Assembly: GCF_015482585.1 (NCBI RefSeq)
Contig: NZ_CP049742.1
Span: 2,077,001-2,141,000 of the forward strand
Reading direction: 5' to 3'
Origin: Mangrovibacillus cuniculi
GTDB lineage: Bacteria > Bacillota > Bacilli > Bacillales > R1DC41
Length of the DNA: 64,000 bases
The notes under the pieces are model-generated. The model was given only the letters and a program-made list of their open reading frames with translations. It did no database searches and had not been told where the DNA came from. Both the position numbers and the translations under genes were made by a program. Of the stretch, positions 31,015-62,161 are shown one piece after another (the stretch's first letter is position 1; each line of letters starts with the position of its first letter).

Positions 31015-31376
31015 CGTGTGCTCTACTCCCTTCTTTCACCACTTTGACCACACGTTATTTACGTAACGTGTGCTCTACTCTCTTCTTTCACCACCTTGAC
31101 CACACGTTATTCCCGTAACGTGTGCTCTACTCCCTTCTTTCACCACTTTGACCACACGTTATTCCCGTAACGTGTGCTCTACTCTCTTCTTTCACCACCT
31201 TGACCACACGTTATTCCCGTAACGTGTGCTCTACTCTCTTCTTTCACCACCTTGACCACACGTTATTCCCGTAACGTGTGCTCTACTCTCTTCTTTCACC
31301 ACCTTGACCACACGTTATTCCCGTAACGTGTGCTCTACTCTCTTCTTTCACTATCTTGAACACTCGTTAATTCTTT
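31015..31376. repeat. Tandem array 1: seven 52-bp hairpin repeats
   Basis: Unit starts fall at 31015, 31067, 31119, 31171, 31223, 31275 and 31327, an exact 52-base period. Each interior junction has a perfect 9-bp hairpin: arms CACACGTTA and TAACGTGTG with loop TTCCCG. A 28-base pyrimidine-rich linker (CTCTACTCTCTTCTTTCACC and so on) joins them. The last unit is degenerate. It fills the gap between the binding-protein terminator and gerA. No coding frame is kept, since 52 is not a multiple of three. Confidence 0.93.
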
Positions 31377-46485: not shown

Positions 46486-46850
46486 GACGGTCCTCAAATT
46501 GAAGGAATTTCCTTTTTCACGACCTACTCAAGCTTCTGACGGTCCTCAAATCGAAGAGATCTCCTTTTTCACGACCTTCTCCCGCTTCTGACGGTCCTCA
46601 AATCCAAGGAGTCTCCTCTTTTACGACTTTCTCCCGCTTCTGACGGTCCTCAAATCGAAGGGATCTCCTTTTTAACGACCTTCTCCCGCTTCTGACGGTC
46701 CTCAAATCCAAGGGATCTCCTCTTTCACGACCTTCTCCCGCTTCTGACGGTCCTCAAATCCAAGGGATCTCCTCTTTCACGACCTTCTCCCGCTTCTGAC
46801 GGTCCTCAAATCGAAGGAATCTCTTTTCTCACGTCCTACTCCCTAAATTT
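46486..46850. repeat. Tandem array 2: seven 52-bp repeats
   Basis: Unit starts (GACGGTCCTCAAAT) fall at 46486, 46538, 46590, 46642, 46694, 46746 and 46798, an exact 52-base period. Each unit joins a weak stem GACC/GGTC (16-base loop TTCTCCCGCTTCTGAC) to a 28-base linker containing CTCCTTTTTCAC. In the last unit the stem is GTCC/GGAC, with both arms changed. It lies between the siderophore ATPase and a nitrilase-family gene; the remaining ~140 bases of this 845-bp gap show nothing. Confidence 0.93.
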
Positions 46851-61130: not shown

Positions 61131-61244
61131 GTTGTCTGACTCTCCTTTTTTCATCTCTATCCTATATTGTAAACATAAAAGAATGGGAGCATCCAATAAT
61201 TGAGCTGGTTACGTATATGTATTGAATTTAATTGATACTTTTAG

Positions 61245-62105
61245 TGGAAGGAGCTTGCCCTGGTATACCTGGAACTGGGTTGCTGGTGGCTGGTATACCG
61301 CGGCACGCTCCTCTGGTATACCTGACACGGCTTTTCTCCTTGCTGCTATACCGCGGCACGCTCCTCTGATATACCTGACACTGCTTTTCTCCTTGCTGCT
61401 ATACCGCGGCACGCTCCTCTGGTATACCTGACACTGCTTTTCTCCTTGCTGCTATACCGCGGCACGCTCCTCTGGTATACCTGCGACTGTTTTTCCCTGG
61501 TCTGCTATACTGCTGGACGTTCCACTGGTATACCTGGCACTGCTTTTCTCTTGGCTACTATACCGCTGGAGTTTTTGCGGACCACCTATTCCACTTTTCC
61601 CCCACCTAGATGATCCGCTAGACGCTCTCCCGGGACACCTGAACCTCTTTTTCCTCACTCTGGTGATCCGCTAGACGCTCTCCCGGGACACCTGAACCTC
61701 TTTTTCCTCACTCTGGTGATCCGCTAGACGCTCTCCCAGGACACCTGAACCTCTTTTTCCTCACTCTGGTGATCCGCAAGATGCTCTTCTGGGACACCTG
61801 AACCTCTTTTTCCTTACTCAGGTGATCCGCCAGACGCTCTCCCGGGTCACCTGAACCTCTTTTTCCTCACTCAAGTGATCCGCAAGATGCTCTCCTGGGA
61901 CATCTGAACCTCTTTTCCCTCACTCAGGTGGTCCGCTAGACGCTCTCCCAGGACACCTGAACCTCTTTTTCCTCACTCTGGTGATCCGCTAGATGCTCTC
62001 CTGGGACATCTGAACCTCTTTTCCCTCACACAGGTGGTCCGCTAGACGCTCTCCCAGGACACCTGAACCTCTTTTTCCTCACTCAAGTGATCCGCAAGAC
62101 GCATT
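61245..62105. repeat. Tandem array 3: about seventeen 53-bp hairpin repeats in two diverged blocks
   Basis: Block A (about seven units, anchor positions 61298, 61351, 61404, 61457, 61510, 61563) has a stem TATACC/GGTATA around a 15-base loop GCGGCACGCTCCTCT. Block B (ten units, anchors 61612, 61665, 61718, 61771, 61824, 61877, 61930, 61983, 62036, 62089) has a stem GGTGATCC/GGGACACC around GCTAGACGCTCTCCC. The period is 53 throughout and continues across the A/B junction with a one-base slip. The linker contains CCTCTTTTTCCTCAC or GCTTTTCTCCTTG. It fills nearly the whole gap between est and secG. Confidence 0.93.
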
Positions 62106-62122
62106 AAATTCCCACACCACGA

Positions 62123-62152
62123 AAAAATCCTGACCGCCTGGGCCAGGATTTT
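62123..62152 (-). terminator. Terminator after secG
   Basis: The arms AAAATCCTG-CC and GG-CAGGATTTT around a short loop lie ten bases after the secG stop, followed by T on the minus strand. Confidence 0.82.
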
Positions 62153-62161
62153 GTACGTTCA

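Follow-up and report, generated by a model that had tools for sequence, protein, structure and literature searches.

MIRU and bacterial minisatellites (VNTR) are dispersed families of intergenic tandem units of approximately 50 bp that undergo concerted turnover. Plasmid centromeres (sopC) and iteron arrays are built of dyad or direct binding sites set in tandem at helical spacing. The REP/BIME elements with their RAYT are dispersed intergenic imperfect palindromes (PMC2817692), and the RacA ram clusters of Bacillus subtilis comprise many dispersed sites that become denser toward the origin (PMC6593407).

The window analysed here, a 64,000-nucleotide stretch (G000:C1:2077001-2141000) of the 3.15 Mb genome of the Bacillales bacterium Mangrovibacillus cuniculi, which is the sole representative of its genus and family among the genomes compared, contains an array of a 53-bp repeat family. 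Like MIRU/VNTR, this family is intergenic, tandem and dispersed, with concerted turnover; unlike MIRU/VNTR, its unit is a pair of inverted half-sites, the arrays are helix-locked in unit length across unrelated families, and they are oriented by replication, with flanks that flip in keto content. Dispersed intergenic imperfect palindromes and a Y1 transposase gene beside one 85-bp array are reminiscent of REP/BIME-RAYT systems, but the units here are direct (head to tail) rather than alternating, the 53-bp family lacks an adjacent RAYT, and the arrays in the genome of a related genus (G128) occur without any. As in sopC and iterons, the arrays are tandem, helically spaced, dyad predicted binding sites, whereas here there are 29 chromosomal copies of one family together with several other families. 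They recall the ram clusters in being many, dispersed and denser near the origin, except that the RacA family (NF009646) was not found in this genome. Lastly, they are purine-rich and leading-strand oriented as are SRS/KOPS and Chi, which are single short words, unlike these 53-bp arrays, only some of which carry Chi-like words.

The array occupies positions 61252-62099 of the window on the minus strand and comprises 16 units of 53 bp in R-linker-L register, with one 52-bp step, as determined by TRF and unit alignment; the earlier note had recognised it at 61245-62105. TRF reports two 53-bp blocks, at 61260-61566 (5.8 copies) and 61611-62102 (9.3 copies). Read along the minus strand, which is the leading and the purine-rich strand, ten type-B units (62099-61570; arms of the GCGGAYCACC / CAGGTGTCCC type, unit 10 degenerate) are followed by six type-A units (61569-61252; arms CGGTATAGCAG / CAGGTATACC). 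The A/B junction is the site of the single 52-bp step, and both blocks keep one register. The A and B consensus sequences align best at register 0 with 58% identity (shuffles, each in its own best register, had a mean of 42% and a maximum of 57%), in agreement with the proposal that this is one continuous array, alignable over the full 53 bases. The features described earlier were also recovered: a GAGCGTC-type centre, a pyrimidine tract, which is purine on the opposite strand, and two halves that have different arms but this centre and the linker in common. Blocks of the two types also occur in one register in many of the 29 arrays.

The array lies, as previously placed, between two minus-strand genes, secG (PF03840; 62162-62392) and est, which encodes an alpha/beta hydrolase (PF12146; 60384-61130), in a gap of approximately 1030 bp. 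The leading-strand 5' flank (62100-62160) carries the secG terminator (a terminator-like hairpin at approximately 62120-62155), which separates secG from the array, and then a G/T-rich stretch, GTGGTGTGGGAATTTAATGCG; the 3' flank (61170-61251) is A/C-rich. secG and est occur together in 68 of 80 related loci, where the gap ranges from 130 to 2230 bp (median approximately 285 bp), so that the spacing is elastic. In the two genomes read from the related genus g56, where this repeat family is also present, the gap measures approximately 170 bp and holds no array. In Neobacillus drentensis (L111) and Bacillus sp. ISL-18 (L141) it contains a 145-bp higher-order array of 21-bp AT-rich units, which suggests that this site gained different helical arrays more than once. 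Two further minus-strand arrays of the same class are found in the window: a 52-bp array of other sequence at 31015-31369 (6.8 copies), flanked by two plus-strand (head-on) genes, and a 52-bp array at 46486-46843 (6.9 copies) with GAAGCGG in most units, which is the only array with an inverted flank signature.

A BLAST search with the array identified 61 places in the M. cuniculi genome, corresponding to 29 arrays and 318 units. Our own-genome sample of approximately 0.86 Mb (27%) consisted of the window and 20-kb stretches picked at array hits and at spaced control positions, and array density within it is therefore biased upward; because the core is near-palindromic, training of the unit scan used the leading strand alone. 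Unit spacing is almost invariant, with 276 of 284 steps being 53 bp, the other eight 52 bp, and none 51 or 54 bp. Five remaining inter-unit gaps measure 84, 73, 105, 106 and 159 bp, the first two of which add near-integral helix turns. Within arrays, at least 359 linker substitutions and at least 629 core substitutions are set against 13 length changes, and the 284 linkers include 191 distinct sequences; unit length is constrained and linker sequence is free. The half-sites are conserved between taxonomic families f1 and f22, while the linkers vary. Constant helical spacing, conserved sites and free spacers are the properties of a phased (iteron- or centromere-like) array. Predicted intrinsic curvature was not consistently above that of shuffled units.

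In every array the units run head to tail at 53-bp steps. By inspection, the leading-strand start is half-site R (the right arm) in about 28 of the 29 arrays and the end is half-site L (the left arm) in about 26, which makes R-linker-L the natural unit: what had been called the loop is the unit boundary, and what had been called the linker is the unit middle. In this register the two halves described earlier are two blocks of pure units, which meet at a unit boundary. Type switches were found eight times at the dyad centre and twice across the linker, a difference in the expected direction that is not significant (p=0.11).

A helical unit length is not confined to the 53-bp family: almost all noncoding tandem arrays in the sample and in loci of other Bacillaceae repeat at close to a multiple of 10.5 bp. 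The 57 noncoding arrays of the own-genome sample, with periods of 20, 40-43, 52-53 and 85 bp, one of 105 bp and one of 124 bp, and several unrelated sequences, fit a single helical repeat of 10.55 bp (mean cosine 0.93, p<=0.001 vs uniform periods), and 26 noncoding arrays in the 80 loci of other Bacillaceae fit 10.35 bp (mean cosine 0.90). Members of the same family are not independent (37 of the 57 have period 53), and the argument, for this genome and other Bacillaceae, rests on the agreement of about ten different unit families. A second dispersed element of approximately 75-124 bp, with CCACGTGATGTGG, occurs at more than 30 places in the sample (including G000 433429, 521175, 1574299, 2564084 and 360217, with arrays at 443787 and 1371135); it is not helical and has no flank flip.

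The arrays are also oriented by replication. By GC skew, the origin lies between 2.70 and 2.76 Mb, where dnaA is also located (2.714 Mb), and the terminus is near 1.18 Mb. In 29 of 29 arrays the leading strand is the purine-rich one, the orientation switching with GC skew, and the other helical families are likewise purine-leading (lowest value 0.52). This polarity holds between two head-on genes too, as in the array at 31015-31369; orientation tracks replication, not transcription or gene strand. In G128, 16 of 19 53-bp arrays share the polarity, which is strong but imperfect there, and the three that differ include one with an inverted core. A natural inverted 53-bp array of G128 (G128:C1:3704103-3705280; L204:9102-10280) has its core reversed with respect to replication, yet a purine strand that is weakly leading (0.54).

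The third feature is compositional. Around 49 helical arrays, the 5' 100 bp are keto-rich and the 3' 100 bp amino-rich, with a left-minus-right keto difference of +0.198 that is positive in 48 of the 49 arrays (p=2e-9; 0.00 under random placement). The flip reaches about 100 bp and is equal whichever strand the adjacent gene is on (0.60/0.60 and 0.38/0.38); neither array-free gaps nor six non-helical repeats show it. Within the arrays there is a gradient to match, with C>T and A>G deviations becoming fewer and G>A deviations more frequent between the first unit and the last. Twenty-two arrays in other Bacillaceae loci showed a keto difference of +0.13 (p=0.0014). In G128 the flip was not significant (13 of 25 positive, p=0.17), and it is thus not obligatory. 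Base pairing between the flanks was ruled out, as same-array duplex energy equals that of permuted flanks. To the left and to the right alike, it is the strand with its 3' end towards the array that is keto-rich, a pattern that would fit 3'-ended single strands having been exposed on either side, for instance by a break or where forks converge.

Tentatively, and with somewhat less than even confidence, we explain the family as a DNA-level minisatellite of helically phased, predicted protein-binding half-sites that recurrently exposes 3'-ended single strands through fork stalling or breakage. It starts from what the sequences show, namely the exact phase, the conserved half-sites with free linkers, the orientation by replication and the local keto/amino flip centred on the array; to these we would add a protein, its binding and a fork stall or break as the mechanism. 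The 53-bp unit corresponds to five helix turns, with inverted half-sites R and L around a variable, purine-rich, A-tract-bearing spacer, and head-to-tail units keep one helix face over as many as about 25 units, which would allow a protein, probably an oligomeric one, to coat the array. Forks may stall, or the duplex may break, at the array, so that single strands with 3' ends would be left on either side of it; if the exposed strand underwent amino-to-keto changes (C>T, A>G), the left flank could become rich in G/T and the right flank in A/C, and repair of the stalls or breaks may produce unit turnover and the A/B blocks. A symmetric break alone does not explain the replication polarity, which counts against the break model. 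The RTP fork-arrest protein (PF02334) was not found in the M. cuniculi genome, although the control was recovered in B. subtilis.

An unlikely alternative is that the arrays are a selfish satellite or REP-like element without cellular function, whose mobility comes from an HUH (Y1, RAYT-type) transposase or from lagging-strand ssDNA invasion, which would account for the replication polarity. In its favour, the arrays are imperfectly palindromic, intergenic, dispersed and family-specific. Type B was found in two of 396 other sampled genomes of the order, both in one other family (f22), and the distribution among relatives suggests that the 53-bp family is old or mobile and is expanding in some lineages. 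In g56 (f22) the array flanks are themselves repeated between loci, and one array of G065 has an array-free counterpart at the matching G128 site, both of which favour mobility. The only Y1_Tnp gene in the M. cuniculi genome is RAYT-like (195 aa, PF01797; G000:C1:2436435-2437422, L027:1168-2455) and lies directly behind an 85-bp array with AAGCGCTT palindromes, with which it possibly forms a REPtron. Against mobility, none of the 53-bp arrays in this genome has a Y1_Tnp/RAYT gene beside it, and their flanks are not shared between arrays, save for an unrelated repeat of approximately 75 bp; in both families (G000, G128) one array follows the same NERD-domain gene at a distance of approximately 20 bp. 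The genome G128, with about 20 arrays, gave no Y1_Tnp match, which rules out RAYT mobilisation as sole cause, and mobility leaves helical unit lengths and the flank flip unexplained. Draft contigs C28, C31, C29 and C22 of G065 (L175, L193, L201 and L203) have their first or last bases within 53-bp arrays, and short-read assemblies therefore conceal the number and length of arrays.

We regard it as similarly improbable that the arrays are chromosome organisers, that is, binding arrays of the centromere, nucleoid-occlusion or segregation type at which neither break nor stall occurs, with the flank composition having another cause. The likeness of tandem dyad sites to plasmid centromeres (sopC) and ram clusters speaks for this, as does the scarcity of arrays near the terminus (28 of 29 lie within 1.11 of the 1.57 Mb from the origin; KS p=0.019), while the missing RacA and the unexplained flank flip speak against it.

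Less probable still is a neutral minisatellite generated by replication slippage, whose orientation and composition merely reflect leading-strand bias. It would be consistent with the greater similarity of units within arrays (0.88-0.89) than between arrays (0.78-0.81), which is concerted turnover. Slippage, however, does not bring unrelated sequences to unit lengths of whole helix turns, nor does it sit well with half-sites conserved between f1 and f22 around variable linkers, and the purine content of arrays is 0.64 vs 0.53 in other intergenic DNA.

It is very doubtful that the arrays are polar recombination or translocase islands, in which Chi-like linker words (AGCGG, GAAGCGG) or SRS-like purine octamers would be read by AddAB or SpoIIIE. 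GAAGCGG is the Staphylococcus Chi site. AGCGG is strongly polar in the linkers (42:0 vs 7.6 expected from shuffled linkers) and in the arrays overall (90:2), but these counts are inflated by homogenised copies, and its absence from many arrays rules out a Chi/SRS island as sole cause. In the array-free 828 kb of the own-genome sample, GGAAGCGG is found 53:0 and GAAGCGG 144:11 on the leading strand; coding bias may contribute to these skews, since the words are mostly in co-directional genes.

The earlier note had proposed that stem sequence was exchanged between the halves with pairing kept, as in an RNA or ssDNA hairpin maintained by compensatory change. The units are imperfect palindromes (61-64% Watson-Crick positions around one dyad axis) that fold better than shuffles (MFE z about -1.4 to -2.4). 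Across the 318 units of the 29 arrays, however, there is no Watson-Crick excess: within each type, multiplying the column frequencies gives the observed frequency at almost every dyad position, the very independence of stem positions that the note had named in advance as contrary to its proposal. Type-B pair 13/23 is Watson-Crick in 0.08 of units vs 0.35 expected, with A-C and G-T in place of A-T and G-C, and a clean double change between A and B exists at only one dyad pair (6/30). The ten-base pairing reported at 61821 (CAGGTGATCC with GGGTCACCTG) holds for nine Watson-Crick pairs, the tenth being T/G. With a Watson-Crick fraction equal to or below independence, no sign of selection for pairing, a more stable strand that is inconsistent (top in A, bottom in B), polarity set by replication rather than transcription, a terminator between secG and the array, and no RNA family match at the array (the window matches only tmRNA and the lysine and SAM riboswitches), stem covariation or stem exchange is ruled out and an RNA or ssDNA hairpin element is highly improbable. 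Near-palindromic tandem units should not be taken as RNA stems before a covariation test.

It is possible, if doubtful, that the phased, strand-exposing minisatellite favoured here belongs to a wider class of Bacillaceae "helical satellites", unrelated intergenic arrays with units of 2, 4, 5 or 8 turns that would be replication-oriented, protein-coated stall or break foci leaving a strand-antisymmetric mutational scar of approximately 100 bp per side. Our search of an open-access library turned up no account of helix-quantised, replication-polar arrays, and an earlier report elsewhere is possible. Helix-quantised lengths, replication polarity and the flank flip are three independent, simple statistics that are applicable to any genome. 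Taken as a set, they make the case that intergenic minisatellites in bacteria are more than slippage debris, being places where a shared DNA-protein-replication process acts, and they point to where the protein and the breaks should be sought.
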